From a virus, in IMG/VR virus record IMGVR_UViG_3300043446_003167, positions 1 to 45,700 of that record: a stretch of 45,700 nt of DNA; one strand, given 5' to 3'. Shown here piece after piece: positions 1-44,331 of this stretch (positions are counted from its first letter, which is position 1; each line of letters starts with the position of its first letter). The notes under the pieces are model-generated. The model was not told where the DNA came from and did not search any database. It worked only from the letters and a program-made list of their open reading frames with translations. Made by a program: the position numbers and the translations under genes.

Positions 1-330
1 AGATCCTTTTTGTTCCTGATTAATATCTTTCATTTTCTTTTGAAGATCCAGGAGTTTGTCTGTAACATCTCCAACATTTTTAATCAGTTGTCCAGCAACC
101 TCATAGGCTCTTGGGGAATCGGATTCTTGTGCAAGTTCTAGGATACCATTAATTGCCTCTTGACCCTTTTCAATAATGGAGTAGAGTTGACCTCTAGAAT
201 ATTCATAATCTTTTTGAAGTTGATCTAGAGATTCTGCAGGTTTAATTGCAGTGGGTTCTGATTTAACAATTTCAGATTTAATTGTGGTTGTCTCAATATT
301 CAAAGCCTTATCAATATCTTCAAAACTCAT
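1..330 (-). CDS. gp16: Terminase small subunit gp16 (partial)
   Basis: This is the first 110 codons of the small terminase, which recognises phage DNA and regulates the gp17 packaging motor at the procapsid portal. The reading frame stays open to the window edge, so the C-terminus is missing. The protein starts MSFEDIDKALNIE. Its middle part (ESDSPRAYEVAGQLIKNV, then LDLQKKMKDI) lines up with the T4 gp16 central helices (NADSPRHMEVFATLMGQM, LKLHKDMKDI). The ATG overlaps the stop of gp15 in an ATGA junction, which fixes the start and implies translational coupling. It follows gp13-gp14-gp15 as in T4. The family match and gene order are strong; the DNA-recognition role is family knowledge. Confidence 0.9.
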   Translation of the reverse strand, partial: MSFEDIDKALNIETTTIKSEIVKSEPTAIKPAESLDQLQKDYEYSRGQLYSIIEKGQEAINGILELAQESDSPRAYEVAGQLIKNVGDVTDKLLDLQKKMKDINQEQKGS

Positions 331-2835: not shown

Positions 2836-3669
2836 TCAACCTATGAGATCAAGTGGTGGTAATTCGTATTCATCCTTAAGTTGTTGTTCCAATTTTTCCA
2901 CTTCCGCAACACCATCGTCATAAATCTGTCTTCCATTCAACTGAACTCCACCTGGAAGTAGAACTCCATTGAATTTGATCATGTTCTGTCCCCATTGTTT
3001 CTTAATCAAAGCCGTGAGGTATTTCTTCAACCACCAATCGTTGTAGAGTTTTGGTGCATCTGAAGGATCTACGATCCTATAACAATCAATAATCACATAT
3101 TCATTTTCTCCAACCTGAGACCAATCAATATCAAGATATAGTTTATGGTTCTTTTTATTGAATCTAATCTGTGCATGGGGATTTAGGAGAAAATCCAAAT
3201 CTTCAAGATATCTTTTGACCATTGCATAATTTAGAAGATCTAATGCACCATAATAGTAAACATCATTCAAAAATAACTGATATTTAATATTAAAAAGACC
3301 GTCTGAAATTGTACTAGAATTGATTTTAAGAATATTATTTACACCAATAATAGAATCTGGAAGTGGAAGATAATTAACTCCTTCAACATAAGTTAGAGAA
3401 GTTAAACCAGCACCAACAACTTCTTGAGAAGATGTTGTTGCAGAACCTACTGGACCTGGTTGAGCTAAGGTTGTTTTAGTTGCAGGAGTGAGTTTATGTT
3501 TTAAAAATACACGATCAATGCCATCGAAATGACGCTCATGATAATACTGAATTGCATCGTCAATTAAATTATCAATCTGGTCGTCATCTACATTTATTTC
3601 TAAAACTGGCTTTCCTAGTTGTTTGAGGCAATAGTCTTTCAACTCCGCTCTACTAGATGGTTGCGCCAT
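2836..3669 (-). CDS. gp13: Neck protein gp13
   Basis: This 277-aa neck protein completes the head after packaging together with gp14. It starts MAQPSSRAELKDYCLKQLG and continues DDQIDNLIDDAIQYYHERH and DGIDRVFLKHKLT, the conserved N-terminal signature of T4-like gp13. The middle (YYGALDLLNYAM, then PHAQIRFNKKNHKLYLDIDW) is also typical. I chose the ATG at 3669 rather than one at 3720: it has AGGGGT 7 bases upstream, matches the family start, and avoids overlapping the preceding gene. A late promoter box lies 27 bases upstream of the start. T4 gp13 is slightly longer (about 309 aa). Confidence 0.93.
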   Translation of the reverse strand: MAQPSSRAELKDYCLKQLGKPVLEINVDDDQIDNLIDDAIQYYHERHFDGIDRVFLKHKLTPATKTTLAQPGPVGSATTSSQEVVGAGLTSLTYVEGVNYLPLPDSIIGVNNILKINSSTISDGLFNIKYQLFLNDVYYYGALDLLNYAMVKRYLEDLDFLLNPHAQIRFNKKNHKLYLDIDWSQVGENEYVIIDCYRIVDPSDAPKLYNDWWLKKYLTALIKKQWGQNMIKFNGVLLPGGVQLNGRQIYDDGVAEVEKLEQQLKDEYELPPLDLIG

Positions 3670-16500: not shown

Positions 16501-19500
16501 TTCCATAAAATCCAGAAGAAGATTGTAATTCCAGTGAAGCTGTATCTACATTTAATATTGTAGAAGTAGTTGAATATGAAGAAGGTACTTTCTGAGTAGG
16601 AGAATATGGATTATCAGTAAATACCTGTTCTGGATTATTATATGGACCATATTTATGATTCGGATTTGCTAATCTAAATCTGATTGAAGTAGTACCTAAT
16701 GTTCCAGTAACAGTTTCCCCAACCGCAAAAGTTCCACTTTTCATTTGAATTTCAATAAGTTTGGGAAGAATGTACTTATTCATATCAACATTATCAAAAA
16801 ATCCATACATTCTAGTTTTTGGTTTCAATCTTCTAGCTATAAATTCAATATTCCTAGATCTCATTATATGAATGACTTCTGTAGAAATAACAGATGTGCC
16901 CAAATTAACACTATCATATCTCTCAGATACCTTGTATTGAATTCCTTGTCTGGCTTGTTTTGTAGTAGTTAATGTTGTTACATTTGTAAAATTAGTATAT
17001 TGATCTCTATAGTTTATGGTAGTTGTCTCTGGAACACCTCTACCTTTTTGATATCTACCTCTAGAAACACTTCTAGATATTTCTTTTGTACCAATATATA
17101 AACTTCCCATATTCTGTCTGGCAACCTCTTTAGTACCAGTCCAGGTAGTTTCCCAAGCCCCCCAATCTATTGGAGACAATCCAGTATTTGAATCTACTCC
17201 TAATTGTTGTATAGTTGTTGAATAATTTCCCTCTTGATCAACTGTTCTCTTTGTCCCTTTAGTTTCGATCCAAGTATCAGTTGCTGGATTCAATTCAATT
17301 GCACCAATCCAATTTACAACGGCAAAAGGATTAACATTTTCTTGTCTAGTTGCAAATGTGTTTTTAAGAAATTCTACATCAGTATATTTTAAACAAACAA
17401 TGTCGCCAACTTTAACCGTGTTTGGATTTCCCAAATCTTTTACAAATCGTAAATCTGCATCTGGATTTGAAACATTTGAAGAACCAATTACAGCTTCAGA
17501 TCCTAAAAGTAAATCTATTGAAGTTGTATAATGCTGTGGTCGTAGTAAACCTTCTTTTGTATCAATACTGCATTTATGTTGAGGATCTCCCAAAGATCCA
17601 GAACTTACTGACTTAAAGTTATCTACCAAAAAACCACATTTAAATCGATCCAAATTTGTTGAAGAATCTTTCAAACTTAAATTCTTAGTATCAGTTTCTA
17701 AAAGAGATAGTGAAGTATAATATTCGATATTTCTTATTCTATCTTCCAATCTAGCAATATCCTGCATTCTATATCGTTTATGTGGAGATAGCTGTACAGT
17801 TACATCTCCTATATTATAAACATAGGGTTTCATAGTAATAGTTGCTATTTCCAAAGCATTTTCAATAATAGGTGGAGCAATAGGAGTCAATGATGGAACT
17901 CCTTTAGAAACAAAAAATTCTCCATATCTATTAAGATATAACTTATCTGTTCTAGCTAGATAATAAGAGTATGATAAGTATAATTCCTTATCCTTAGCAA
18001 AATTATATGGGGTGGAATTTGTTGCAGGCAAAAACTTTCTTGAATCAAATTCAAATGGAGAATAAGGTGTTATAGAACTATTATAAGGACTAACTCTTGG
18101 TCTTAGATCAATGATATCACTTGCTCGGTGAAACGAAATTGCCGGTAATTCGGTAGAATATCTTTCTTTATCATATGAATTAACAGTTACAACATCTCCA
18201 TCATCATTTTGATCTATGTAATAGTTATTGAATACAATTTTTAATCTTTTTGTTGGAGCAGTTACACCTGATTTTCTTATTAATGATGAATAATCAGCTA
18301 TTTCAAAAGTTTGTCCGCTATTAAAAGTAAAATCAGAAACAATATTTCTATCGCCTTCTATTAACAAACTTATTTCAGCGGTAATATTTGATTCATAGAA
18401 AAGAATTTTTTCTCCTTTTACAAAAGTATTTTCATTAGTATATACAAATTCTACTTGATTTGTTCCGTTTGTTGCAACAAACATTGCCATTGAATTGCTT
18501 GTTGATCCATAAATTATTTCACCTTTAATTGCATTTAAAATATTTGCATTTAAATTAGTTAATTCCAATTTAGGTAAATCAGCATCATTTTCATCCGAAG
18601 ATTCAAAAACTCCAGCAACATAAATTACATCAGGAACATTTAAAGATATTCTAGCATCTTGAACTCTTGTTCCATAATATGGCCCATATGTCAATCCATC
18701 ATTAAGAGTTGTACTTCCGATTCCAGATGAAGTATTGCTAGAATTTCTGATATCTAAAACGGAACATCTATTATAAATTTTCTTCCTGGCCTTCAATCTT
18801 CTCTTTCTTAAAGTAGCGGTCAATGTTGCAGAACCATTTTTGCTTAAATTTACTAATGTTAAGGTTCTTCCAGAAGTAATTGTAAATTGTTGAGAAGTCA
18901 AAGTTTCTATAGTACCATCACTATAAACTAATGTGTAATCTTCCGAATCAAATGGTTCTAAAGTGATATTTGTATCGCTTTCTAGTGTTGCTGTCAATCC
19001 ATTACTTGCAACAGTTACTGAATATGATTTTTTATAAACTATTTCTCCATCGGAAATATCAACATTTGAAATATTTGTATTTTGTAATTCTGCAAAGAAA
19101 AATGAATCTTTATTATTCAATAAAGTTGGGATTCCTTTGAATAAATCGGTTAAAGTTATTGCACTTGTTGGTAATCCCCCACTATTAACTCCAGAAACGC
19201 TTGTAGTTGCTTCAATAGTTATTGTTTTTGACGAAGTACTTACTGAAGTTACTCTGTTATATGTTGGTACTTTTTCTCCAGATTTTGTATAAACAAAAAT
19301 ATCTCCAGTATTAATTCCCACCCCAAAAGTTGAAGCAGATGTTGTTATAGTACTAATTCCAGCAGTAGCTGTTGAAATAGTAAAACTTGTATTTTGTGGC
19401 GCAATTGCTATACCTGCAGATATTACAGTATCTGCAGTAAAAGATGTTGTTGTACCAACATATCCAACCACTTGTCTTACATCAGATAAATCATAATCTC

Positions 19501-21109
19501 TGACGGATGTTATTGTTCTGGAAATATCTTGACCATCAATTTTTAATTGTTCTCCTACCGTAAAAGTACCAGAAACTTGGTATAAAACTAATTGATTGCT
19601 GTTAGTAATATTTGAAGCTAAAAATCCAGACGCGGAACTATGTTTTCCTTCAACAAATGATGGCTTTGATAAAGTTATACTAGTATTTAATTGCAAATAT
19701 GTATAAGTTTGTAAATCAAAAACAGATCCTTCAAAAACTGTAGTAGAATTTGAATATGCTGCATCTTTTAATTTTAAATCATAAACTCTACCTACTCCTA
19801 TGGGAATTCCTGCAGGAAGACCCGGAGTTGCTGTTCTTTTTGAGTATAGGGTTATTTGGCTAGTAGTGCCAAATCCAACCGGAATTGTACCATAAACATT
19901 ATTGAGTTCTACTTGATTTCCTAAACTAAATGGAACTGTAGTATTTTTGACCTCTTCTGTGGTTCTTGGCTTTTCTAGATCAGCATTTACTGTTATAAGA
20001 GTTTCTACCTCATATCCTTTAACATAAGCCTTTCCTGAAGAAATTTGTAAAGTTAGTAAATCATTGGATGGAGTATTTCCTTCTTTTGTTAATTGTCCAG
20101 GATTATAAACCCCATTATTTCCTATTTTATTATTTAATGATTCTTTAGCAATTACACTAAAAGGTTTTACATAATAATCACCAGATTCATCATTCGTTCT
20201 TCTTGCAAGTTCGTCAGTTATTAATGAATTAACATCTTGTTTTTTAATAACTTTTTTTATTATTCCATTTTCAATTCGCAATAATTCTATAAAATTTTCA
20301 TCATTAAAGTCATCAATAGATTTTTTTATTAAAGTTGCTACGATTCTAAGTCTATCTGCTCCAGGTGCAGCAAAATTTGAAAATCCTCTAGCATTATCAA
20401 ACAAATCTAAATTTGATTGTGATGGTACAGCAATATCTTCAAAAATGGATAATCCAATTCTATAAGAAGGTAAATTGCTATATTGATCTAGTATTACAGT
20501 TTGAGGAAAAACATCTACAAAAAATCCTCGTATAAAATAGACTCCTTCTTCTATTTTAACTGCAGAACCTATTGCTGTAGAATTTGATATAACTGCAGTA
20601 GCGAATGATGAATCTAGTCTAATTACTCCTATGCCATAATCAATATTTTCTAATACTAGTAAATTTTCTCCATCTACAAATTTACTAGTAGTAAAATCAG
20701 TTTCACTAGAACTTTGATATTTTATGTATAAAGTATAATTATCATTCTCAGACTCTTCACTAGTAATATATTTTTCAATTTTTGCAGAAACTCCACTTGT
20801 CTCACCTTTTATTTGTTTACCTATTAAAAATTCCAAATAAGTAGATACTGGAATTCCCAAATGGGTTGGATCAATTTGCACACAAGTGTATTCGGAATCA
20901 TATGCAATATTTCCCGGAATTACTACTTGGCCTTCTTTGAAAAAATGTTTGCCAAATTTTTCAACTTGATTTTGTAAAATAGATTGTAATGTTGTTAATT
21001 CTCTTGCTTGTATTGGAGTTCCTGGTTTAAATAAAACTCTTTGATAATTTTTTGTTGGATCAAAATCATCAAAATATGGCGAAGTGTTTAAGTTGGTATT
21101 TTGTGCCAT
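13595..21109 (-). CDS. Giant DUF4815-type baseplate/virion protein
   Basis: This 2504-aa protein starts with the DUF4815 signature: SPYFDDFDPTKNYQRVLFKP, then GTPIQARELTTLQSILQNQV and KHFFKEGQVVIPG. Near residue 1110 it has the helical segment RMQDIARLEDRIRNIEYYTS with LSLLETDTKNLSL, also typical. From about residue 1670 it has DPLAQSFEVPDENGVFITKC followed by a beta domain (LPVTMQIRTMQTGLPTTTI, SPVYLETGNSYCVVLLSAS). A GxGY module (SIGGTGYAYGDSLEV) lies near residue 1960. The ATG is 5 bases from the gp8 stop. It occupies the position of T4 gp9/gp10, so it probably attaches to the wedge periphery and holds host-contact fibres; this is inference. The length exceeds 2,500 codons without a break, with no sign of frameshift. 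Confidence 0.88.
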   Translation of the reverse strand: MAQNTNLNTSPYFDDFDPTKNYQRVLFKPGTPIQARELTTLQSILQNQVEKFGKHFFKEGQVVIPGNIAYDSEYTCVQIDPTHLGIPVSTYLEFLIGKQIKGETSGVSAKIEKYITSEESENDNYTLYIKYQSSSETDFTTSKFVDGENLLVLENIDYGIGVIRLDSSFATAVISNSTAIGSAVKIEEGVYFIRGFFVDVFPQTVILDQYSNLPSYRIGLSIFEDIAVPSQSNLDLFDNARGFSNFAAPGADRLRIVATLIKKSIDDFNDENFIELLRIENGIIKKVIKKQDVNSLITDELARRTNDESGDYYVKPFSVIAKESLNNKIGNNGVYNPGQLTKEGNTPSNDLLTLQISSGKAYVKGYEVETLITVNADLEKPRTTEEVKNTTVPFSLGNQVELNNVYGTIPVGFGTTSQITLYSKRTATPGLPAGIPIGVGRVYDLKLKDAAYSNSTTVFEGSVFDLQTYTYLQLNTSITLSKPSFVEGKHSSASGFLASNITNSNQLVLYQVSGTFTVGEQLKIDGQDISRTITSVRDYDLSDVRQVVGYVGTTTSFTADTVISAGIAIAPQNTSFTISTATAGISTITTSASTFGVGINTGDIFVYTKSGEKVPTYNRVTSVSTSSKTITIEATTSVSGVNSGGLPTSAITLTDLFKGIPTLLNNKDSFFFAELQNTNISNVDISDGEIVYKKSYSVTVASNGLTATLESDTNITLEPFDSEDYTLVYSDGTIETLTSQQFTITSGRTLTLVNLSKNGSATLTATLRKRRLKARKKIYNRCSVLDIRNSSNTSSGIGSTTLNDGLTYGPYYGTRVQDARISLNVPDVIYVAGVFESSDENDADLPKLELTNLNANILNAIKGEIIYGSTSNSMAMFVATNGTNQVEFVYTNENTFVKGEKILFYESNITAEISLLIEGDRNIVSDFTFNSGQTFEIADYSSLIRKSGVTAPTKRLKIVFNNYYIDQNDDGDVVTVNSYDKERYSTELPAISFHRASDIIDLRPRVSPYNSSITPYSPFEFDSRKFLPATNSTPYNFAKDKELYLSYSYYLARTDKLYLNRYGEFFVSKGVPSLTPIAPPIIENALEIATITMKPYVYNIGDVTVQLSPHKRYRMQDIARLEDRIRNIEYYTSLSLLETDTKNLSLKDSSTNLDRFKCGFLVDNFKSVSSGSLGDPQHKCSIDTKEGLLRPQHYTTSIDLLLGSEAVIGSSNVSNPDADLRFVKDLGNPNTVKVGDIVCLKYTDVEFLKNTFATRQENVNPFAVVNWIGAIELNPATDTWIETKGTKRTVDQEGNYSTTIQQLGVDSNTGLSPIDWGAWETTWTGTKEVARQNMGSLYIGTKEISRSVSRGRYQKGRGVPETTTINYRDQYTNFTNVTTLTTTKQARQGIQYKVSERYDSVNLGTSVISTEVIHIMRSRNIEFIARRLKPKTRMYGFFDNVDMNKYILPKLIEIQMKSGTFAVGETVTGTLGTTSIRFRLANPNHKYGPYNNPEQVFTDNPYSPTQKVPSSYSTTSTILNVDTASLELQSSSGFYGNIVTNMQLKGETTKAIAKVTDVRLVTDTAGTLIGSLYIPDSKLQSTPSFETGTKTFTLTTSSTNSTIVGSTDSTADAKFTSSGTLNNTEEVTLRTRNANVERINRTEERTLTSQSTALQGGTSFVNRTVSQTRWVDPLAQSFEVPDENGVFITKCDVFFSSKDTAGLPVTMQIRTMQTGLPTTTIIPFGEVVLDPEKVNISSDGKTATTFTFPSPVYLETGNSYCVVLLSASNEYKVWISRMGEEDVTTLNLPESQKIVVSQQPLLGSLFKSQNGSTWDPSQLEDLKLTLYRAKFVKTSSTVRFYNPKLDIGNNQIVTLRPNPLDCISKSTLIGLGKSLTSSEVTGLTPGSPILQNNNGTFRSNLKSVVGSIGIGSTLAITSAGLGFTSVFKTYSNVNLISITGKGFGAKVNLSVQNGVAIAATVSIGGTGYAYGDSLEVNYSQTDNLGDSLILTIPNNVGIISSFNSLLVDRVQGTLNQNSSDSLFYVGSAGTTLLSGATVNTITDLTDGLHFKVSHNNHGMYSLVDKVVLSGIEPDQKPETLKASYSSSSTSNIVVSSVGIFTSFENVPVSSVNPGYILIDNEVIKYTGVVTSTNSLTGITRNIDDSISGAYDLEFPVFKYELNGVSLRRINKTHNLSDTSLQTYPTDLDHYYIRVGMNSRGIDRTVGNGLGYPALYFNTDKSCGSYDTVPLMGSPRGPKATQNIPFNVIRPNFQTLLPQKTSISAKARTFSGSSPDSDLTSFLDQGFVDVSLDGNNEFDSPRIICSQVNEDTYLSAFPGKKSFTMELTLTTEDEKVSPMIDLDRVSVITVANRINSKITDYATDPRVNSLTEDPTAATYLSNIVILEKASDNLKVFFDAFRDSTNDIRVCYRIFRSDAPTTSQLWQLFPGYDNLDANMQVINPAKNNGRPDKKIAASTAEDDFKSYEFTAAHLPQFNGFQIKILMSGTNSAFVPKIRDFRVIATI

Positions 21110-22743: not shown

Positions 22744-25700
22744 TTATTTACTTATAATATCTCTAGTTCTTAAAATTTTAGGAGAAGAAGATATACCGGA
22801 AATACCGTTATCATTGAAAACTTCAAAAATTTGTGGGTTTCCCAAAACTCTATTTTGGTAATCATATATCTTACCCCAACTATATCTTCCATAATAATTA
22901 TTTGTGCCAATACCAGTATTATTTGATCCCCTACCATAAACTTTAACATAATTATCCACCATTGGAGCAAAATTACATGTTACAGTAACTATACCTAAAG
23001 AAGGTGTTGTGACATCTTCAACGATATAAACACCATCTAAAAATGACTTTGCAATTCCTACTTTTGAATTTGGATAATTGCTCATACCACCAAGAAGTGT
23101 AGTGATACCAACTAGATCACCACCAATTTCAACATTACTATCAGTAATTACAAAATAATCTCCTTTTGACAACTGACTATTAGTAATTCCAAAAACATTT
23201 AAAGAAGAATATCCAATACCCAAAGTACTATTGTCATATTCTTCCGATTTTAATATGAAAGAAATTTTTGGAGATGTTGTCCCAATACCAGCAGTTCCAC
23301 TAAGATAAGTTGTAATTCCAATAATAATCCCATGATCTCCTTTAACTTTGATAGATTTAACAATTTCTGTTGAGAATTTATCGGGTTCAACTAATACCGG
23401 CGGAAGTTTTGATGTATCATAACCAAATCCAGGATTTACTATTTGTATTGATGTCACAGTTCCACTATTTACATTTGCTACAGCTGTGGCTTTGTTTTTA
23501 ATGGGCTCTGCGTATATTGCAGTAGATCCAGATCCAATTGCAATATATCTACCATCAGATCCAAGTGTATCTACAAATGATAGATCATTTATAGATTTTG
23601 ATTGTAAAGTACTTCTATAATTCCAATCACTAAGATCAAATGAATAATATAATTCACCAATAGATGTCAGAATAACATAGAAACCATAATTATAATAGAT
23701 GTTTTGAATATTTTTAAGTCCAAGATTATTTGAAATAATTTGATAATTGTCTCTATTGATTGATTTTAAAATAACTCCGTCATCACCACCTACAATAAAA
23801 CTTCCATTAACATATATCACCTTATTTAAATTAACATTTACCGGAGATACAGTAAAATCCCAAATAGTTCCATCATTTGATGTTCTAATAATTCCATCAT
23901 TACCAACCGCAACAAAGTATTCTGCACCAAAAACAACACTATTTAAACTAGATAATGTTTCGGAGTATCTACTAACAAAGCTAGTTGTACCTATACCAGG
24001 GCCAACAAATATTGATCCACCAGCACCTACGGCAACATAAGTATCTACAACATCAGAATATACAATTTCATTAAATGTCCCAGTATATCCACTACTTACT
24101 CTACTTACAGCTCCAAGACCAATTACTGTAAATTCTTCTTCTAATGAAATTTGTGTCCATGTAGAAATACCAATTCCATAATCTGTGGCTTTTATAATTT
24201 TTCCAGAACTTCCTACTGATAATAATAAATTAGTAGACCCAGCGCCAACTATTTCTATTGAATTAAAATCAGAAGTATTTCCAAAACCTACAGTATCAAC
24301 TTGCCAATTTATCCCATCTGGACTCGTTGCAAGAATTGAACTGCTACCAACTGCAATAAATTTATCTTTGTATTTAATGGCTTTAAAATCATATGTAGTA
24401 GAACCAATTCCAACTCCAGCAGTCCAATTAAAAATAGGATCTTTTCTCTGAATATAACTTTCAGAAATAATTACTTTTGGTGCTAAAGTTTTAGCATATC
24501 CAACTCCAGGATCAATTATACTAATTGAAGAAATAGTTGACGATGCAGAAACTACAGCTTGTCCTATACAAGGTTGAATAGTTCTATTTTCTAATATTAA
24601 AACATCGCGTATATCTTCTGAAAGATTGTCTATATCTGAAAATAGTGGATAAACATTATCAACATATATTGCATTATCTGTAGGTCCAATTTTTTTAATT
24701 ACCGTTGATATTGGCTTTATCTTACTTTGATATCCAGGCCTAGATTTGGAATACAATGTCCCACTAATAACAGTATCCGACTTTTGTTTTTCCCAAGTAA
24801 GAGGTCTAACTTTTGTTGGATCGGTAATAATACCAACAGAATAATAGTTAAATGTTTCAAATTGATCAGCAGCAGTAATTTTTTTAACAACTCTATCAAA
24901 TTGAGAAATGTCAAAAGGATCTTCAGGATTTTCTTGTATTGATATTATATCTCCAGTTTTCAATGTTTTTGGTGGATCCACAAGTTCAACATCAACTGAA
25001 GATCCTCTATAATATAAAACTACACACTTAGATCCTTTTTTTGGCGCCTCAGTAAATACTACCCTACTTCCACTAAAAGTATATGCAGTTTTTGGTACTT
25101 GCAATATATCATTTATGTATATAAAAATATTGTTACTTAAATTTAAATCTGTGCCGGGAGGGACTTTCAATCCTATAACTTCTCTTATTCCATTAACATT
25201 AGTTGCGAGGGTAAATTTTTTCCTAAATCCATTAAATAATGGAGAAATATCCTCGAATCTTATGAACTGGCCTGGATAAAAACCAGAAAAAGTATCGGTT
25301 TGTACTTCTTCGACAGTTAAAACAAATTGATTAAATAATCCAGTGGTTCCTATTCCTACAGGTGTAAGTTTATCGCCGATTTTATATCCTATTCCAGGTT
25401 CATCAAATTTATAAGATATAATACTAGATCCCATACCAACTTCAACAGTTAATTTTGCTCCTTGACCGACCCCAGAAGTTCCTCCAGTGTATGCAAGAGG
25501 TAAGTTACTATATCCAGTTGGTATTCCAATTACTACTTGTGGAATTGATGTACGAGTATATCCAACTCCAGAGTTAACAATCATAAATCCACTAATAGTT
25601 CCTGCAGCGCTGACAATCGCAGTAATACTTGCGCCTGTTCCTATTGTAGATGCGATACTAACTGTCGGAGAACCTCTGTATCCCGATCCGCCTCCAGATA

Positions 25701-28700
25701 CTCTTATACTACTAATAGTTCCGGTTGCCGAAATAACTGCAGTAGCCGCTGCACCAATTCTTGGAATATATCCATAACTAGTAGATACTCCAACTTTTGA
25801 TATTTTTCCGGCTTTTGGAATACCAGATAAGAACTTAATTACATTTGTTGAAGGTCCATCAACCGTATAATCATTTGTTGGATCTTGAAAAACATTATTA
25901 ATTAAAACTATAGGATTATTATTAATATAAGTAGCACTATTAACATTATTAAAAATTGCATCTGTAGTTTGTCCTTCAGATTTTAATGTAAACTCTGTTG
26001 CGGCAATTCCAGTAAAAGATAGAGAAATGTCGTCAAATAATATATTTTTATCATTTGGTGTATTTGGATCAAATTTTCTACTAAAAGCTCTGCCTCCAAA
26101 TATAGATCCAGTTTCCAATCCAACTGGTCCAATTTTTCCATATGGAGCTATATCAAAATATATTACATCTCCTTTAATATCAAAAGAACCATTCAAAACT
26201 GTTGCAGCAGAGCCAATAGTATGTGAAGTTGCAACTGTGCCAAAGTACCCTCTTATGACCTCTATCTGATTTGATGAGGTTATTCCAATATTAGTAATAG
26301 AAACTAGTTCATTATCAATATTAATAATATCACGAATACTTAAAGATGAAATTCCAGAAGAAATATCTATTATTGTAGTTGAAGCAGAGGAAACACTGGA
26401 AGCTAAAGAAACATCTAGTGATTTTCTTGATATTGGTTTTTGTATTATTCCATCTATAGTAATTACTACACTGGAATTTGGATTTTTATATTCAAGGTAA
26501 TGAGTACCAGTACCCACATTTGTTATATCTAAAAATATACTGGTAGATAATCCGGACAACTTAAATTGGTTATCATTTAATTTATAAACAAATACCGAAT
26601 CTGGTAAAACTTGAGTACCAAGCTCCAACGGAGTAAATATTAAATCATCACTTGAAGTAGTTCCACCAATATAAGTACCCGCTATAGAAATTATTGATGT
26701 AGAAGAATATCCAGTTCCTCCATTTAAAACAGAAACTGAGTTAATTGCTCCAGAAGAATCTCTAGAAACATTAAAAGTGGCACCATTTAAATCATTAGAA
26801 GGAACTTCCAAATAGGTTTGATCGGATTCACTTTGAATTACCGTTGGACCGGTCTTAGAAATTGTAAAAGTTAGATCATTAGTCGGTGATACACCGCCGA
26901 TATAAGTTCCAGCAATAGAAACTGTTTGTCCAACAACATAGTCCATACCACCTTTAGTTGGTAATATTGAAGTTGAAAGAGCATCTCCAGTGGTTGGAGA
27001 ATAAGTTATGAATACAGTAAATTCAGCTCCGGTTCCTGTTGTTGTCAATCCAACAGACTGAAGGTAGGATTTTGAAATTGGTCCAACAGGACTTAAGACG
27101 GTAGAAATACCAGTTATTGTTGTAGATATAGATACAGAATATCCATTTTCCAATACAGCAGTTCCATCAAAATTTTGAACACTTATTAAAGTATCGAGAG
27201 ACGATGTAACATATGAAGTTGTAGCAATTCCAATCGGATTTCCATTAGAATTTGAATATATTAATTCTTGTCCCGATTGAAAATTATGATTAATAATTGT
27301 AAATGTGTCGGTAATAGAATCTATACTACTACCAGTAAAAGCATGTTTGAACAAAGAAGTTCCTTTATTTTTTAATTTAAAGGTAGTCAATCCAACTACA
27401 GATCCACCTCTAGTTAATGATGGATATATGACCACATTTGGTCCAGATGTAGTACCCAACCCAACTATAGATGTAATTATCCCAACACATGTGCCTATTG
27501 CAACATAAACATCTGCATAACAATTTTTATTGTAAGATGTACTGCAGTCAATATCTATAGGAACTGTATAATCTATAGTTTGACTTGTAGATATAAATGC
27601 TCTTTGTATTGTACCGCCAGTTACATAATTATAAGATATTGTTGATGGTCCAGGATTTACTCTAAATCTATTTGAATCAATAACTTCTACTTTATAAACA
27701 AATGTTTCGGGAGTTAGCGGTCCTGTGGTTAAAATTGAATTTGGAAATATAGCAGTAGTAACTCCACTGCCAGGATTAAAGGAAAAAGATAAATTTTTCA
27801 ATACCACATAGTTTGTGGTTGTTGTTGATAATCCATGAGCCGTTGATGTAGTTATTGTAGTTACACCACTTATTCTGTTGTAAACTGAGGTAGAAATTGC
27901 AATACTATTGCCAAGTTGATAAGATGTAATAACTCCAACATTATTAATGATATATTTTGATAAATCGAGAATATAATTAAATCCCAGAATAGTTTCGGTA
28001 GATATTCCTGACAGATAACTAGTGCCAAGTCCACTCCAATAGTCTAAACCAACATCAATAGATTTATTATTTGAAGAATATCTAACATCATGTGAAATTG
28101 CATCGACAACATATCCAACTTCATTTTTAAAAGTTGACCTATTCCAAGTTGGACTTGTATTAATACCTGGATATATTGCAGTAATAAATCCTACCACTTC
28201 TTCTTTTATAAACTCTCTATTCAATCCCAATAAATACGATCCATCCGTCCTTCTTTGAGATTTTATTTGTAAAGAAGTTCCATTAAATTGTGAACTTATA
28301 TCATCAATATCAATGACTTTATTTGTTTTATTTAAAATATAAGGGGCTAAATTAATACCTTCATCAAGAAATATATTTTGAGTAGATCCATCACTAGCGG
28401 TTTCTTCTTCATAAACTCTAGTAAAATTCTTTTTGACTCCTATTGACGATACTTGATCCACATTAATAAATGTAAATGAAGAGTTTGATGCTAATTTTGG
28501 TTTCATATCCAAAGATCTAGCAATGCCAATATTAACTTCATTTATTGTTGGTTTTGTGATAATTTCCAAATCAGAAAATTCTTTAAATCCAGAGGGATGA
28601 ACAATAGATCTTACAGATTCTCTCCAAATATTATATGGGATATTACCTTTGATCGAATATGAAAACTTTTGATAATAAAAATTATCAGAAATTCTTTGTG

Positions 28701-31700
28701 AATATTCATTCAATATCCCAGAAGAATAGTCTATAGAGGAAGTTTTATCTCTAGATACACCTAGAGTAGAATATAAGTTAAATGTATCAAAATATTCTAC
28801 TGTGCCCTTTATTTTAGATATCTCTCCATAAATTTTAGCTCCAACATTTATGGTGCCAGAAATATTTTTTAATCTCATTTGATTGAGTTTACCATCCCAA
28901 CCATTTTCCATTATTGATCCAGAAAATAACGGAGAGTTTACAGTTTCATTTGAAAGGAAATTAACATCATCTTTTAGTATCATCTCAAAAACAGCCATAT
29001 CATTTTTGTTTATTACTACGCCCAAATTTAAATCACCATCATACATACCAAATGACCCTGTAGAAATTCCAGTCATATCATATGTCACCGTATTATTGGC
29101 TGTACTAACTCCAATAACATCAAAGAATTGATAATTATATGAAGATGAATTAAAATTAGCATCATCAGAAGTTGATGATGTTAATCTGCAATTTTCAATA
29201 AAAATTTTATCCCCTATTTTGAATGGATATATGTAATCTGTTTGACCAAATCCAACGGAAATGAAAGGGTTTACACTTGGAATATTTGATAATTCAAGGG
29301 TTATATAATTTCCGTTGATAGAAATACTATCAATTTCGTATCCATTTGAATTATAAATTGGAACAATATCTAACGGGCCCGATAATGAAGTAGAATTTTT
29401 AATGATGTTTACAGAAGTTACAGATCCTCCAGATACTACTGCATCAAGTTCAATCCCATCGGTGTCATTTTTTACGATTAATTTTGGAGCAGTATTATAT
29501 CTTCTACCTCCAGTAGTAACTCCAATATAATCTATAGTTCTTATATCTTTTACTCCTATAACACTCGGAACGCTTAATGAGGGAGATAGTGTTGGGTCTG
29601 TAGGATAATCAAATCCATCTTTAATTCTAGTAAAGGTTTCAACTCTTCCTACATTTGGAGATACTAGTTTTACTATTGCATTAGTTCCAAGATCACTTTT
29701 AATTCCTCTAACTTTAGGTAATTTATTGTATCCTCTACCGGCAAAATTAATTTTTAATTTTGATACAGGACCTAAAGCATTAGTAGATGTAGTTTTATAT
29801 GAAAAAGATGTTTCATTTTGCTTCAGTATTTGTTTCTCAATAAAACTTAATTTTTTAGTATTATAAAATGTAAATGTTTTATCTGTAACTGTCTCTACAG
29901 TAAAAGTATCATTTAGTCTATGATTTACTATAGAAATTTTATTGTTTGATAACACATCAAAATCTGTAGATATTTGTTTTTTACTTTCTTCTGATGATCC
30001 TCTCGGAAATAAATTGTAGTATATTGGGAAAAATTGTGCGGAAAGGTCTAAAACAACTTTAGAATCAGCATTTCCAGGAATTCCGGTTCTAGATACAAAA
30101 AATCCAGTTCTTTCGTTAATTTTTTCAATGAATTTTACATCATAATAAAATTGCAGATCAAGATTTGTTAAACTTGGATCAGAAACATCAAATTCTATTT
30201 TTGTTGTCCTTATACAACTAATTTGAGGATTAACAAAATATAATTTATGGTTAGTACCGCCCACCGAATTAAAATTAATAAATTTAGATTCTTTTATATC
30301 AGTTCTGTATTGACATAATTTTATTGCATTAAAATCGGTTTTTAAAACATAGTAAATTCCATAATTATAAAGTCCGCCTATAGTATTTTCAGAAATATAA
30401 ACAACTTTATCACCAGTTTCAATATTACCATCATATGAAGAAAGATCTATGGAATCATTTGCTATTGAAACATCGGTATCGAGGAAAGTTATCTCCCTCA
30501 TTAAAACTTTTCTATTTACTGGATCAAAAATAACTTTAACAACTTCATTATAGTCGGTTTTTATATTAAATTTTATACTATCACCTACCTTTAAATTATG
30601 GTTTGATGTAGTTGTTACTATTCCAAGTGTTTTTTGTAAACTTGATGTTATTTTAGGATTTAGAGTTGTTAAAGAGTGTGCTGCACCGATAACACCATAA
30701 GATTTTTCTTGATTCCAAAATTCTAAACAATTATTATTAGTTCCTATTCCTATTGAACTTGTAAATCCAATAGTAGATAAACCAACATAATCCTTACCCA
30801 AGTTTACAGCCCAAACAATTTGATTATCCTCTAACTTAATTGAAAGGCCGGACCCGACATTATTAACATACAAAGATGTTCCAGCAAATCCAGATCCAGA
30901 ATTATAAATTAATGGTTGTCCTGTATAAAATTTATGTCCTGGTAAATATATGCTCTTCGCTGGAATAAATCTAGTAGTAAATGAAGTGGTTCCAAATCCA
31001 ACAACAGTACGGAATGAACCAGTTGATCCAATACCAATAGAAAATCTTGGATCAAAAAATGTAGTGTAATTTTGTAATGTTAAATCTTTGACTGTACCAG
31101 TAGGAATTTTAAATTCCCTTGGCAATAAAACTACATTATCAATTCCTGCAGTATGAATTCCAGTATTTTGTAACCTATTTACATAAAATCCCGATCTTTT
31201 AGAGTCGATATTTGTAATTAGTAAAATTTCAGTCCCTATACCTATAAAATCATTAACTTTAAATCCACTAATATCTTTCAATTTAATAAAAGTTGATATT
31301 CCAGTAACTGATACAGTATCAATGTTTTCCTCCAATTGAGATTCTTTGTCATCAACTTTTACATATTGAATGCCTTGAAATAATGATGAAGTTATTGTAG
31401 ATATACCATTAATTAATATTGGTTGTTCATTTTTTATTCCATGTGGTGCAGAAGCTGTTACAATAGTATCTGGCAATTTTATATAATATTCCAGATCTTC
31501 TATTAAACTTTCAGTTATACTAAAGGATTCTACATCAACACCTTTTAACTCACTTACGACTATATTAGGTTGTATACCATCAGTACCTGATACATCTATA
31601 TCAACAGGATCATTTACTTTATAGTTATCTCCTGGAGAAAATATAACAACATCATCTATTTTACTAGAATTTATTGAAGTTACTGAAAATTCTTGTTTAT

Positions 31701-34700
31701 ATTCTTCTTTTACTTTATCGAGTAAATCATAATAAGAATTAGCCCTATTTAGATAATAGGGACCAACATTTCTAGTTAAATTAGTTCCAAAAATATTAAA
31801 ATCCTGATTAAATGCTGGTAAGAAATTTTCAGTTATTGGTTTATTATAAAAATATGGTCCAACAAGATATGGGTATTTTGGAACAGATTGATTAGAAGCA
31901 TTGACTTCTACAGTAGAAAAATATGCATATACACCATTTGGATATTCTGGTGTTATTGCAAATCTTCCATTATGAATATCCAAATCTCCAGATCCGTCAT
32001 ATACATAATCATCTATAAAAAATCCGGGATCAAATGCTGGCGGTCTTTTTCCACTAGTTGTATCAACATTTAAAACATAACTAGAATTCATCCTTCGTAT
32101 AAATCCGCCAGTAGTAGTATCATACGCATATGGTCCATATATCGGATTTCCATCATATGCGTATCCCAAGATCGGAGAATGATTTAATGTACCAGTGCTT
32201 TCTTTATTATCTTCGGTAAAATTATCAGACAACTGATATCTTAATATTTTTGGAACATAAAAACTAATAAATTGTAGTCCAAGATCTGGATTTTTACTTA
32301 CATGGAGTATTCCATCATCCTGTTGAGAAATAATATTTTTACTTTTTGATACCTGATTTATTTTCCATTCCGTCACATTTGCTAAAAATTTAGCATTTTC
32401 TCCTCTATTTTTGAGAGTTAATATTGTATTTGATGGTTTATATCCTATACCACCAAAAACAATATTGACACTTGTTAATTTTCCATTTTCAACAATTGGT
32501 TCTATCTGGGCATAATCACCATCACCAGAAACCACTATTTCAGAATTTTTTCTAAATCCATTTCCTCTACCAATAATTTGAACATCAACTATAGATCCGT
32601 CAATAATGATTGGTTTTAAAATGGCTTCAGAAGTTATACTTGAAATTCCAATATTTGGTCTTCTGTGGTAATTAATAATGTTTGTACATCCATATGATAC
32701 ACCACCATCTTCTAGATAAACATCTTGAATTGGTCCAAGAACAATTGGTTTAAGTTCTGGACTTATTATTGTAGTAGATCCTATTGCAGATTTTGCTTCT
32801 ACATTTATTTCTATTGGTGGATATCCGATAATGTGCGTACCAATTCCCAAAGAATCTAATTTAACAAATTTATTTTTAATATAATTTTCATCACTTAAAT
32901 TTGTACTGACTCCACAGTCATAAAGTCTAAATTTATTATCATCAATTAGTTTGACTTTATAATATATTGAAGTTGATAATCCAGATACGGGAGTGTCAGT
33001 ATAACTGTATTTAACATATTCCCCATCCAAAAATCCATGTTTTTTCGCAAAAACATAAGAATCAAATGTATTAATACCACAAGTTTTATTATCTGCAGAG
33101 AGTAGAGATGATACTCTCACATTTCTATTTGAATACCCTTCTCCAGGATTTTTTACATAAATTTTTGTAAAAGTATTTTTATTTTTTAGTGTTGTTATAA
33201 AATGAAATCCAGATGAAACTCCTACAATATCAATTTCGTTTATTTTTTGAAGAGCATCTGTTTTTGTGTTAAACAATTTAACTTTATTATCAGTTAAAAT
33301 TCCAACAAAATATGTCGAACTGTTTACTATTCCTAAAATATTGTTATTTTTATTAGAATCATATATAACTTCTTCCCCATCTTCAAATGGAGTTTTGTTT
33401 AAAAATTGTATTGTATTGTCTGCTGGAGAAACATTAAGATCTGCTTTAAAACCAGCAGATACTTGGCTACTAACAAAGTTGGATTCTAATATACATCCTT
33501 TACCATTTCCCCCAGTAATTGTAATTTTTGGTTTTTCTTGATATCCATATCCAGCATTTAATATTTTAACTTCTTTAACAGATCCAACAATATTTACATG
33601 AGCTTTAACCCCTATACCAGTTTCATCCTTTAATTCTATTGGAGGTACATCAATAACATCATAGTCTTTACCGGAATTAGTGACCTCAATAGAAGATATA
33701 GCTCCATAGTAAATGTTTTCATCGAATAAAGTTGGGGATAAAATTTCAACCCCATTTATTAACATTCCAATTTCTCTATTAAAAGTAGTTCTTTTATTTA
33801 AATCATCGAATAAAAGTTTTGTTCCTTTGAGTGGTATTTTCTTTAATAATTTTTGATGTTTTAGAGTTTTATTTTGATATCCTGCTTTGTATATAATATC
33901 ATCAGTTACTGGAGAAGTAATAGTAACATATTTTTTTGAGAAAATATCTGATTTGCTGTAAGATAATTTTACTTTATTATTATCAACTTTTGTAATATAG
34001 TAAAGTCCTGTTAATATACCAACGGATGTAACTGGTTGGTAATAAATTAGTTCACCACTTAAATGATCATGATTTGGAACATTTAATGTATCTGTTATAG
34101 CTACACCAACATTAGTCGAAGCTACTTTTTTATTCTCTGTAGAGAACATTGGGTAATTTGGTAATCCAGACGATGTTACATAAAAATATTTTTCGTCCGA
34201 ATCCATATAGGTGTTTTGTACTCCAGAAGGAATAGAATCAAGATCTGGAAAATGATCATTATAATGTTTTACCTTGTAAATTTTTTTCTTTACTAAAATA
34301 GAATTTAAAACTACATATGTACCAGGATTTATTATTTGAACTAAAATTTTTCTCGTATATTTTTTAATTATATCCGATGTATCATATTCTACATCAATAA
34401 TATTACATTCTCTAACATTACCAGCAGAATCTTCTAATAAAATTGTTTCTCCTGCATAAAAATAAACTTTATCGAACAAAGTAATTCTATATTTTGTAGA
34501 ATCAATTTGAGATATTGTTTTAATATTGTGATTGGTTGGTAAATTGTACATCCAACTATTAAATTCAAATCTATCAAATAGATCTTTACCAAATCCAGAT
34601 AAAGAAATTGAATCTCCTACTCTTAAATTGGAAGTTTTGGAAAAATCAATATTATCAATTACATTAACGACCCTAAATTCAACTTTAGATGTATTACCTA

Positions 34701-35850
34701 CACCAATGTAACTAAAAGCAAATTTTTCTTCAATCAAATCTAGTCCATAATCCAAAGACTTAGTTACATTTGTAACTCCTGTGAATTGATTGACAGTTTT
34801 TCCTGTATAATTTAATGTTATAAAATCAGAATTTTTGGGTTTTACCAAAAGAGATCCAGAATTAGCAAATCCAACAGTAGAATCAACTAGAATATTATTT
34901 GCATTTATTGCAACGCTTTCCAATATTCTAGTTTTACCAGATACTTGAAAATTTCCAGTAAATGAAGTACTATCTAAAGAAATTTCATAAAAATTTTTAT
35001 TTGTTACTGGCCTGTACTCAACATTAAAAATTGAAGCGCTAACAGTGCCAACTCCAACTATATTTTGGAATAAAAAATTACCTTTTATTTCTATTGGATT
35101 ACCGCCAGAAATTTTTTCTACTAAAATATTTTTAGTTATAAAATATGAATTTGAAGATGGAACAAGAGTAAACTCTTGTGGTTTTATAATCTCAATATCC
35201 GATCCATATAAAATTTTAAATAATAATTTATATGATTGGTCCGTACCTTTAGAAGAGTATAAATCTTTAATTTTATATGATATATTTTCTATAGATATAT
35301 TTTCATAAAAATCCCTTGATTCAAATCCTGGAACAAACTCATATTTAAATTTTTCAAAAAATTCTATTAAAAATAAATTACTTAAATTATTAACTACATC
35401 GCCATCAGAATGTTCAGAAGCTTGTGAAGAAGAAAATATAGCAAACTCTGGATTATCAAGAGATTTTAAATTTTCAATTCCACTAAATCCCCTAATACAA
35501 TTTTCAAATGTAGTGTTAGTTTTTGAAGTGTATGTAATAATCTCATCATTTATTTTCAATAGTCCATAAGAATCTGGCCATCCCTTAGTAGATGTTACCT
35601 CTATTGTTTCATCAAAACTTAAAAGATCAGAAGTTAAAGTAGTTTTTTCAATTAAATCAATATTATTAAATTTTTTACTATTTTTATACTTAGTAATATT
35701 TGAAATAATATCAATAGGTCCAGATTGATTTTCTAGAGATTTATAATACTGTTCAAGAAACTCCACAAGAAGAGGAGATTCAATTGTTAAAAATTCTGGA
35801 ATTTGCGATTCTAAGATAGAACCAATTTTTACTCTTTTAATTTCTGACAT
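22744..35850 (-). CDS. gp7: Giant baseplate wedge protein gp7 homologue
   Basis: This 4368-aa protein (T4 gp7 is about 1032 aa) is one of the largest expected here. Residues 1-215 carry gp7 hallmarks: PLLVEFLEQYYKSLE, and GFESRDFYENIS followed by KIKDLYSSKGTDQSYKLLFK and ILYGSDIEI (T4: FFESRSYDFYSTKGIEASYK, FLFKVLYNEEVEIEI). Near residue 2415 comes YNIWRESVRSIVHPSGFKEF (T4: SSRWKSDVIRFVHPVGFGF). In T4 these two blocks are close together; here about 2,200 residues of GxGY-rich beta modules separate them. A YHYH-like segment lies at about 1225-1335 (GYAYDGNPIYGPY, YVYDGSGDLDIHNGRFAITP, EYPNGVYAYFST). A propeller-like stretch lies at about 3800-4100 (ILATSPDGINWQV, GIIRTSNDGTIWDF, GVILKSINRDNY). 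It sits between gp6 and gp8 with a one-base gap to gp6. GGAAAG lies upstream of the ATG. Confidence 0.92.
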   Translation of the reverse strand: MSEIKRVKIGSILESQIPEFLTIESPLLVEFLEQYYKSLENQSGPIDIISNITKYKNSKKFNNIDLIEKTTLTSDLLSFDETIEVTSTKGWPDSYGLLKINDEIITYTSKTNTTFENCIRGFSGIENLKSLDNPEFAIFSSSQASEHSDGDVVNNLSNLFLIEFFEKFKYEFVPGFESRDFYENISIENISYKIKDLYSSKGTDQSYKLLFKILYGSDIEIIKPQEFTLVPSSNSYFITKNILVEKISGGNPIEIKGNFLFQNIVGVGTVSASIFNVEYRPVTNKNFYEISLDSTSFTGNFQVSGKTRILESVAINANNILVDSTVGFANSGSLLVKPKNSDFITLNYTGKTVNQFTGVTNVTKSLDYGLDLIEEKFAFSYIGVGNTSKVEFRVVNVIDNIDFSKTSNLRVGDSISLSGFGKDLFDRFEFNSWMYNLPTNHNIKTISQIDSTKYRITLFDKVYFYAGETILLEDSAGNVRECNIIDVEYDTSDIIKKYTRKILVQIINPGTYVVLNSILVKKKIYKVKHYNDHFPDLDSIPSGVQNTYMDSDEKYFYVTSSGLPNYPMFSTENKKVASTNVGVAITDTLNVPNHDHLSGELIYYQPVTSVGILTGLYYITKVDNNKVKLSYSKSDIFSKKYVTITSPVTDDIIYKAGYQNKTLKHQKLLKKIPLKGTKLLFDDLNKRTTFNREIGMLINGVEILSPTLFDENIYYGAISSIEVTNSGKDYDVIDVPPIELKDETGIGVKAHVNIVGSVKEVKILNAGYGYQEKPKITITGGNGKGCILESNFVSSQVSAGFKADLNVSPADNTIQFLNKTPFEDGEEVIYDSNKNNNILGIVNSSTYFVGILTDNKVKLFNTKTDALQKINEIDIVGVSSGFHFITTLKNKNTFTKIYVKNPGEGYSNRNVRVSSLLSADNKTCGINTFDSYVFAKKHGFLDGEYVKYSYTDTPVSGLSTSIYYKVKLIDDNKFRLYDCGVSTNLSDENYIKNKFVKLDSLGIGTHIIGYPPIEINVEAKSAIGSTTIISPELKPIVLGPIQDVYLEDGGVSYGCTNIINYHRRPNIGISSITSEAILKPIIIDGSIVDVQIIGRGNGFRKNSEIVVSGDGDYAQIEPIVENGKLTSVNIVFGGIGYKPSNTILTLKNRGENAKFLANVTEWKINQVSKSKNIISQQDDGILHVSKNPDLGLQFISFYVPKILRYQLSDNFTEDNKESTGTLNHSPILGYAYDGNPIYGPYAYDTTTGGFIRRMNSSYVLNVDTTSGKRPPAFDPGFFIDDYVYDGSGDLDIHNGRFAITPEYPNGVYAYFSTVEVNASNQSVPKYPYLVGPYFYNKPITENFLPAFNQDFNIFGTNLTRNVGPYYLNRANSYYDLLDKVKEEYKQEFSVTSINSSKIDDVVIFSPGDNYKVNDPVDIDVSGTDGIQPNIVVSELKGVDVESFSITESLIEDLEYYIKLPDTIVTASAPHGIKNEQPILINGISTITSSLFQGIQYVKVDDKESQLEENIDTVSVTGISTFIKLKDISGFKVNDFIGIGTEILLITNIDSKRSGFYVNRLQNTGIHTAGIDNVVLLPREFKIPTGTVKDLTLQNYTTFFDPRFSIGIGSTGSFRTVVGFGTTSFTTRFIPAKSIYLPGHKFYTGQPLIYNSGSGFAGTSLYVNNVGSGLSIKLEDNQIVWAVNLGKDYVGLSTIGFTSSIGIGTNNNCLEFWNQEKSYGVIGAAHSLTTLNPKITSSLQKTLGIVTTTSNHNLKVGDSIKFNIKTDYNEVVKVIFDPVNRKVLMREITFLDTDVSIANDSIDLSSYDGNIETGDKVVYISENTIGGLYNYGIYYVLKTDFNAIKLCQYRTDIKESKFINFNSVGGTNHKLYFVNPQISCIRTTKIEFDVSDPSLTNLDLQFYYDVKFIEKINERTGFFVSRTGIPGNADSKVVLDLSAQFFPIYYNLFPRGSSEESKKQISTDFDVLSNNKISIVNHRLNDTFTVETVTDKTFTFYNTKKLSFIEKQILKQNETSFSYKTTSTNALGPVSKLKINFAGRGYNKLPKVRGIKSDLGTNAIVKLVSPNVGRVETFTRIKDGFDYPTDPTLSPSLSVPSVIGVKDIRTIDYIGVTTGGRRYNTAPKLIVKNDTDGIELDAVVSGGSVTSVNIIKNSTSLSGPLDIVPIYNSNGYEIDSISINGNYITLELSNIPSVNPFISVGFGQTDYIYPFKIGDKIFIENCRLTSSTSDDANFNSSSYNYQFFDVIGVSTANNTVTYDMTGISTGSFGMYDGDLNLGVVINKNDMAVFEMILKDDVNFLSNETVNSPLFSGSIMENGWDGKLNQMRLKNISGTINVGAKIYGEISKIKGTVEYFDTFNLYSTLGVSRDKTSSIDYSSGILNEYSQRISDNFYYQKFSYSIKGNIPYNIWRESVRSIVHPSGFKEFSDLEIITKPTINEVNIGIARSLDMKPKLASNSSFTFINVDQVSSIGVKKNFTRVYEEETASDGSTQNIFLDEGINLAPYILNKTNKVIDIDDISSQFNGTSLQIKSQRRTDGSYLLGLNREFIKEEVVGFITAIYPGINTSPTWNRSTFKNEVGYVVDAISHDVRYSSNNKSIDVGLDYWSGLGTSYLSGISTETILGFNYILDLSKYIINNVGVITSYQLGNSIAISTSVYNRISGVTTITTSTAHGLSTTTTNYVVLKNLSFSFNPGSGVTTAIFPNSILTTGPLTPETFVYKVEVIDSNRFRVNPGPSTISYNYVTGGTIQRAFISTSQTIDYTVPIDIDCSTSYNKNCYADVYVAIGTCVGIITSIVGLGTTSGPNVVIYPSLTRGGSVVGLTTFKLKNKGTSLFKHAFTGSSIDSITDTFTIINHNFQSGQELIYSNSNGNPIGIATTSYVTSSLDTLISVQNFDGTAVLENGYSVSISTTITGISTVLSPVGPISKSYLQSVGLTTTGTGAEFTVFITYSPTTGDALSTSILPTKGGMDYVVGQTVSIAGTYIGGVSPTNDLTFTISKTGPTVIQSESDQTYLEVPSNDLNGATFNVSRDSSGAINSVSVLNGGTGYSSTSIISIAGTYIGGTTSSDDLIFTPLELGTQVLPDSVFVYKLNDNQFKLSGLSTSIFLDITNVGTGTHYLEYKNPNSSVVITIDGIIQKPISRKSLDVSLASSVSSASTTIIDISSGISSLSIRDIINIDNELVSITNIGITSSNQIEVIRGYFGTVATSHTIGSAATVLNGSFDIKGDVIYFDIAPYGKIGPVGLETGSIFGGRAFSRKFDPNTPNDKNILFDDISLSFTGIAATEFTLKSEGQTTDAIFNNVNSATYINNNPIVLINNVFQDPTNDYTVDGPSTNVIKFLSGIPKAGKISKVGVSTSYGYIPRIGAAATAVISATGTISSIRVSGGGSGYRGSPTVSIASTIGTGASITAIVSAAGTISGFMIVNSGVGYTRTSIPQVVIGIPTGYSNLPLAYTGGTSGVGQGAKLTVEVGMGSSIISYKFDEPGIGYKIGDKLTPVGIGTTGLFNQFVLTVEEVQTDTFSGFYPGQFIRFEDISPLFNGFRKKFTLATNVNGIREVIGLKVPPGTDLNLSNNIFIYINDILQVPKTAYTFSGSRVVFTEAPKKGSKCVVLYYRGSSVDVELVDPPKTLKTGDIISIQENPEDPFDISQFDRVVKKITAADQFETFNYYSVGIITDPTKVRPLTWEKQKSDTVISGTLYSKSRPGYQSKIKPISTVIKKIGPTDNAIYVDNVYPLFSDIDNLSEDIRDVLILENRTIQPCIGQAVVSASSTISSISIIDPGVGYAKTLAPKVIISESYIQRKDPIFNWTAGVGIGSTTYDFKAIKYKDKFIAVGSSSILATSPDGINWQVDTVGFGNTSDFNSIEIVGAGSTNLLLSVGSSGKIIKATDYGIGISTWTQISLEEEFTVIGLGAVSRVSSGYTGTFNEIVYSDVVDTYVAVGAGGSIFVGPGIGTTSFVSRYSETLSSLNSVVFGAEYFVAVGNDGIIRTSNDGTIWDFTVSPVNVNLNKVIYVNGSFIVGGDDGVILKSINRDNYQIISNNLGLKNIQNIYYNYGFYVILTSIGELYYSFDLSDWNYRSTLQSKSINDLSFVDTLGSDGRYIAIGSGSTAIYAEPIKNKATAVANVNSGTVTSIQIVNPGFGYDTSKLPPVLVEPDKFSTEIVKSIKVKGDHGIIIGITTYLSGTAGIGTTSPKISFILKSEEYDNSTLGIGYSSLNVFGITNSQLSKGDYFVITDSNVEIGGDLVGITTLLGGMSNYPNSKVGIAKSFLDGVYIVEDVTTPSLGIVTVTCNFAPMVDNYVKVYGRGSNNTGIGTNNYYGRYSWGKIYDYQNRVLGNPQIFEVFNDNGISGISSSPKILRTRDIISK

Positions 35851-43696: not shown

Positions 43697-43895
43697 TCGT
43701 GTTCCTCTCAACATGGCTAAGATACCAGGCCTGGCTGCCTCTGGCGCATACCATGGCCCACTTGTACGGCTGTCCACTATTCTCTCTGTTCTCAGCTTTT
43801 TATGGTATACTCATGGACCTCTGTGGCTTGAGCTTTACATAAGCACTCTGGCTTAAGCTTAATCACGAAGCCCCTTTATGCACTCCCACAGAGTT

Positions 43896-43925
43896 ATTAT
43901 AAGCCATTCAGAGGGCTTATGTCAA
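43896..43925 (-). promoter_or_regulatory. Consensus sigma70 promoter P1
   Basis: The minus strand has TTGACA (43920-43925) and TATAAT (43896-43901), both perfect, with an 18-bp spacer that contains TAAGCCCTCTGA. It points to the 92-aa gene 200 bases downstream, with a leader rich in inverted and direct repeats. It is unlike the late NTAAATA boxes, so it would be read by host RNA polymerase early in infection. Confidence 0.8.
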
Positions 43926-43961
43926 GCTCCGAATGTTGGGGTCTTAGAGTGCTCATAAGGC

Positions 43962-44010
43962 TGTGGAAAACTTATAGACTTTTTCCACAAGTGCTGTGGA
44001 AAACTATAAG
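43962..44010. repeat. DnaA-box cluster 1 with inverted repeat
   Basis: Three exact boxes: TGTGGAAAA (43962-43970), TTTTCCACA (43981-43989) and TGTGGAAAA (43995-44003). The segment 43971-44010 is an inverted repeat: CTTATAG...TTTTCCACA pairs with TGTGGAAAA...CTATAAG, with a 3-base bulge and a 5-base loop. Confidence 0.85.
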
Positions 44011-44210
44011 AAACTGTGAGACCTTATGTGTAGCAAACTCTGAGATCCCGGATGCTTATGTGTGGGGTGTGTTGCCATTTTAGCGGTCGTGTGATAGCCT
44101 GCCCGCTTAGATCACAAGGTCTCAGAGGGCTTTAAATGACCATAAACTCGCAAAGCCTACGAAAGAAAGCTTAAACACAGCTATGTTTTTTTAGCCATTT
44201 ATTTTAAAGC

Positions 44211-44256
44211 CTTTTTCCACAGCTTTTTCCACAGGTTATCATAAACTTGTGAAAAA
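44211..44256. repeat. DnaA-box cluster 2 (tandem)
   Basis: CTTTTTCCACAG occurs twice in tandem (44211-44222 and 44223-44234), giving exact TTTTCCACA boxes at 44213-44221 and 44225-44233. A one-mismatch reverse box, TGTGAAAAA, follows at 44248-44256. An AT-rich run precedes this cluster. Confidence 0.82.
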
Positions 44257-44331
44257 CTCATGCTAACTAACTCTCGGAGCACTAAGAGTATGTAACTCCA
44301 CTCCTCTCTAGGTGTTGTTTTCTCAGAGAGC

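Follow-up and report, generated by a model that had tools for sequence, protein, structure and literature searches.

The stretch at 43,697-44,331 of the window (the whole piece of viral DNA analysed, 45,700 nucleotides of IMG/VR record IMGVR_UViG_3300043446_003167) appears to be a cis-acting element that is conserved among T4-like cyanophages (Kyanoviridae), with one copy in each genome, and whose likeliest function is that of a replication-initiation site, a reading drawn from sequence comparison to which we assign a probability of about 0.45. Since an element present once per genome recurs in many related viruses, it is probably either a start of replication or a regulatory switch making use of a protein of the host. 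Initiation is favoured because there is one core per genome, because an AT-rich tract is locked to the boxes and because the arrangement resembles T4 oriF. The window encodes T4-like structural proteins (tail sheath stabilizer, head closure, and baseplate wedge proteins of the gp6 and gp25 types) and at the DNA level it matches Synechococcus myophages best. The structural region includes two open frames of 4368 and 2504 amino acids on the minus strand (22744-35850 and 13595-21109, respectively), and in the phage S-SCSM2R a 'large exoprotein' adjoins the gp6 gene. The element and its left flank comprise the following features.

43896..43925, minus strand: leftward sigma-70-type promoter, TTGACA, 18 bp, TATAAT; 12 of 12 consensus positions
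43962..43970, minus strand: DnaA box 1, TTTTCCACA, group A; exact match, 100% identical in relatives
about 43971..44010, no strand assigned: inverted repeat CTTATAG..TTTTCCACA / TGTGGAAAA..CTATAAG with boxes 2 and 3 inside; read from the sequence, kept in relatives
43981..43989, plus strand: DnaA box 2, group A; exact match, 100% identical in relatives
43995..44003, minus strand: DnaA box 3, group A; exact match, 100% identical in relatives
about 44072..44127, plus strand: conserved single-copy non-coding core; model match at 44086-44127 with a rough E-value of 3.7e-8
about 44181..44209, no strand assigned: AT-rich low-stability tract, candidate unwinding element, directly before the tandem boxes
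44213..44221, plus strand: DnaA box 4, group B; exact match, 100% identical in relatives
44225..44233, plus strand: DnaA box 5, group B, 12 bp after box 4; 94% identity, some relatives have TTTTCAACA
44248..44256, minus strand: degenerate sixth box TTTTTCACA, one mismatch

The leftward promoter, the core and the degenerate sixth box had been overlooked in the initial annotation, which was made from the sequence of the window. Its description of five exact boxes in two groups proved accurate: the copies of TTTTCCACA at 43962-44233 are all that the 45.7-kb window, a fragment of the phage genome, contains. Group A (43962-44003) has the orientations -,+,- with gaps of 10 and 5 bp, and group B (44213-44233) consists of two forward boxes at 12 bp from start to start with 3 nt between the pair, which form the tandem 12-bp repeat noted earlier. 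In the cluster that had been placed in a large inverted repeat, group A, boxes 2 and 3 lie inside that repeat, and the AT-rich patch seen between the groups corresponds to the tract at about 44181-44209. The stretch had also been described as devoid of genes, and the only open reading frames that overlap it are indeed short mechanical ones of 50-59 amino acids, none of them a convincing gene. In 100 shuffles of the whole window TTTTCCACA occurred 0.98 times on average and five copies were never reached, against five observed and unevenly spread. An unbiased count of repeated 9-mers in five genomes (Syn9, S-PM2, Syn1, a 162-kb contig and the window) singled out the same sequence: no other 9-mer reached two copies within 60 bp in each of the five genomes, and no other reached three in four of them. 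Chance clustering of the boxes is ruled out by the shuffles and by this count.

A DNA similarity search with the window's own stretch returned only S-SCSM2R, which shares the flanks and has no boxes; relatives of the element were gathered via box patterns, by scanning IMG/VR for three-box patterns and then comparing box geometry. Seven other viral contigs (four distinct sequences) have the A and B groups with the same box positions and orientations, at an A-to-B distance of 251-294 bp and with drifting DNA in between. In an alignment of eight distinct relatives, three of them with a degenerate box 5, identity reaches 100% over boxes 1-4 and 94% over box 5, versus 62-77% for most spacers, which also vary by insertions and deletions. 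Several relatives possess an exact opposing box near the place of the degenerate TTTTTCACA box of the window. The share of boxes found inside the cluster is 6 of 8, 5 of 5 and 6 of 7 in large contigs of 162, 124 and 111 kb, the exception being a 249-kb contig with just 6 of its 14 boxes there. Tight clusters occur in the cultured phages S-PM2 (at about 19.23-19.35 kb), S-RIM32, S-CAM1, S-CAM3, S-RIM44, Syn1, S-RIM8, P-TIM68, DSL-LC02 and DSL-LC03, all ten picked by box search. A separate set of ten cyanophage genomes was chosen irrespective of boxes, five of them via similarity of a neighbouring gene; here the cluster is present in Syn9 (at about 52.55-52.70 kb), S-MbCM6, S-CAM8, S-ShM2 and Syn19, and is absent from S-RSM4, S-WAM2, S-H9-1, P-SSM2 and P-SSM4, as it is from T4. 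The boxes are exact, of the high-affinity type, and number two to seven per genome. Their commonest unit is forward, 12 bp, forward, 13-14 bp, opposing; other phages have forward, 23-25 bp, opposing. A 146-bp block of S-RIM8, boxes included, matches 206 phage records at one place each, all cyanophages, and a block of S-RIM44 matches 50 records. Conservation in related cyanophages, which the initial annotation had put forward as a check, is thus found as one cluster at one place in many relatives, and it extends across genera. Six IMG/VR contigs carry a related four-box order (forward, opposing, forward, opposing) in about 65 bp, one of them with a core match; these may represent additional variants of the element. 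A 46.7-kb viral contig with a G+C content of 29% has eleven exact copies of TTTTCCACA within 300 bp (9576-9875), mostly head to tail every 21-31 bp or so, in an iteron-like array.

The core lies between the two box groups and in the window consists of a promoter-like pair, TTGCCA (44072-44077) and TAGCCT (44095-44100) separated by 17 bp, followed by GCTTAGATCACAA; most close relatives have TTGACA as the first hexamer. Across the aligned isolates it reads as a TTGAC-type hexamer, followed in most copies at exactly 17 bp by a TA-hexamer, and then GCTAAGA..ACAA, with an identity among relatives of 92% as compared to 62-77% in the spacers. Many copies have a second hexamer that resembles a -10 poorly, and Syn9 has no pair. 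A sequence-only model of the core (R1), trained on fifteen sequences, was searched with stricter filters and with E-values that are rough. It gave exactly one match in 29 of 36 phage records and one in the window; the seven records of the 36 that gave no match were T4, P-SSM2, P-SSM4, P-TIM68, DSL-LC02, DSL-LC03 and S-SRM01. Core-bearing isolates outside the training set are S-RSM4, S-WAM2, S-H9-1, S-8S53, S-PRM1 and S-CAM9. Among two sets of loci fetched by box pattern alone, which include some training sequences, near copies of these or repeat isolates, the core was found in 15 of 23 and 33 of 68 at E up to 0.05, and in 14 of 23 and 25 of 68 at E below 0.001. The core sits 51-152 bp before the first box, the distance varying among phages. 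It is closely followed by a gene on the same strand in S-8S53, S-PRM1 and S-CAM9 (positions 2630-2774, 3434-3614 and 11424-11647 of the fetched loci); in most other isolates the core is directed against the neighbouring genes. A reading of the element as a structured RNA was dropped, as there was no Rfam match and the core gave no consensus fold.

The core is also kept in five isolates without exact boxes (S-RSM4, S-WAM2, S-H9-1, S-SCSM2R and S-CAM9), so the boxes are not essential to the family. In the first three of these, the palindromes TTGATTCTCAATA / TTATTGAGAA occupy the place of the boxes, and DSL-LC03 carries both DnaA boxes and the TTGATTCTCAATA-like palindromes, which we take to bear some resemblance to cyanobacterial Fur iron boxes. 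That the site can be replaced would suit a regulatory function, or one in which DnaA is an accessory.

The AT-rich tract lies 5' of the forward boxes, a placement that counts against an origin, and the order along the core strand is promoter-like pair, GCTAAGA..ACAA, AT-rich tract, boxes. The 30-mer of the tract in the window ranks in the lowest 3% for stability over 1.5 kb, and the least stable 30-mer in a 60-bp range starts 35 bp before box 4. In 13 of the 14 phages scored, all but P-TIM68, this 30-mer likewise starts 25-38 bp ahead of the first box; when a wider range is scored, 30-mers of equally low stability occur at other places in some phages.

Instead of starting replication, the stretch could be a DnaA-controlled early promoter region, where host DnaA would act as a transcription factor and tie early expression to the replication status of the host, a possibility that we consider tenable if rather unlikely. 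The perfect leftward sigma-70 promoter, which ends 37 bp to the left of group A and is present in most close relatives and in box-less S-SCSM2R, argues for such a function, together with the exact 17-bp spacing of the core pair in most copies and the different palindrome at the place of the boxes in box-less phages, as the sites of regulators often swap. The gene that follows the core on the same strand in S-8S53, S-PRM1 and S-CAM9 likewise suits an ordinary promoter and counts against an origin. The lack of the promoter-like pair in some copies, for example that of Syn9, also counts against an origin. Three observations speak against this function: the spacing of the AT-rich tract is constant relative to the boxes but not relative to the core, core and boxes are separated by anything between 51 and about 150 bp, and the core of most isolates faces against its neighbouring genes.

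The initial annotation's identification of TTTTCCACA as the cyanobacterial consensus is confirmed by the literature, where it is documented as the DnaA box of most cyanobacteria, and the DnaA protein of Cyanothece binds paired boxes and does not clearly bind a single one (PMC4674748; PMC3480399). The DnaA domains PF00308 and PF08299 scored above cut-off in none of 20 phage records, with bacterial controls positive, which speaks against an origin driven by a phage-encoded DnaA in these records and makes host DnaA the likely ligand, one that likely binds the boxes. A search of the open-access literature (subscription papers and preprints lay outside it) found no paper on DnaA boxes in such phages. 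In a scan of bacterial genomes the unit TTTTCCACA-3-TTTTCCACA-2..7-TGTGGAAAA was frequent in Acidobacteria and Clostridia among the matches listed, and there was no cyanobacterium among them. In Acidobacteria the paired-box unit is present on several contigs of one genome and therefore need not always mark oriC. This occurrence, and the existence of core-bearing phages without boxes, would agree with recognition of the boxes by another protein of phage or host, or with an ncRNA gene or some other cis site, for packaging or recombination for example, in which case the likeness to the DnaA consensus would be a coincidence; we judge this improbable, as the repeated 9-mer exactly equals the cyanobacterial consensus, and the results on Rfam and folding speak against an RNA. 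E. coli datA is a DnaA titration site with an array of DnaA boxes. A datA-like titration, by which replicating phage genomes would draw DnaA off host oriC and halt host initiation, is unlikely: like datA the phage element is a box array away from host oriC, its exact high-affinity-type boxes are multiplied by phage copy number and the 20 records lack a DnaA of their own, but the boxes are few and in one cluster, and titration calls for no conserved core, no AT-rich tract held at a set distance and no constant place in the genome, the first two of which datA is not known to share.

For the replication-initiation site that we prefer, the following course may be envisaged. Host DnaA would bind the box array cooperatively and contribute to melting of the AT-rich tract, perhaps assisted by a transcript that starts at the core promoter and forms an R-loop as at T4 oriF; thereafter the helicase, loader, primase and polymerase of the phage would take over. 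A more specific proposal, which we regard as doubtful, is a hybrid site of T4-style promoter, unwinding tract and host DnaA boxes, at which the host initiator would aid a phage that has its own replisome, with box-less lineages using another palindrome, perhaps the site of another regulator. Among the hallmarks of an origin, a non-coding cluster of consensus boxes beyond chance and a low-stability tract adjoining the boxes were found, and DnaA-trio repeats, the mark of the basal unwinding system, and a GC-skew switch were not, which together with the five isolates that lack exact boxes counts against an origin. Among ten phages or loci, no box has more than two trios next to it; a B. subtilis-like check sequence has six. 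The GC skew shows a local dip and no switch at the element; it follows the coding strand and was discarded as an origin marker. A skew switch is often weak in cyanobacteria and phages. To the earlier proposal of an origin-like anatomy recruiting host DnaA, the conserved cluster, the lack of a DnaA gene in the phages searched and the documented identity of the box thus lend support, and the skew change that it had named as a check did not appear.

Known systems resemble the element in part. Cyanobacterial oriC has 11 boxes in Synechococcus elongatus PCC 7942 and 3 in Cyanothece ATCC 51142 (PMC3480399, PMC4674748). Similar to these origins, the phage element has clustered TTTTCCACA and an AT-rich patch in non-coding DNA; unlike them, it is located on a lytic T4-like phage without an adjoining dnaN, possesses its own conserved core, lacks the boxes in some relatives and shows no skew switch. 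T4 oriF consists of a MotA-dependent promoter and an exchangeable downstream unwinding element and is R-loop primed (PMC3016281). The cyanophage element, also from a T4-like phage, has in most copies a promoter-like pair followed by a low-stability tract, whereas its tract leads into DnaA boxes and its promoter motif differs. T4 has several origins, whereas the element is present in one copy per genome. To our knowledge, the T4 origins do not need DnaA, a point against the origin reading. For cyanophage Syn9 a single theta origin was predicted (cited in PMC2984593), which favours initiation; Syn9 belongs to the same phage family and carries the element.

The original observation is confirmed and generalised, and its interpretation as an origin is plausible, though unproven. 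Cyanomyoviruses are common viruses of ocean Synechococcus and Prochlorococcus. The start of their DNA replication is hardly known, the sole statement found being the Syn9 prediction (PMC2984593). The element marks one exact place per genome, and would link phage replication or early expression to the replication initiator of the host.
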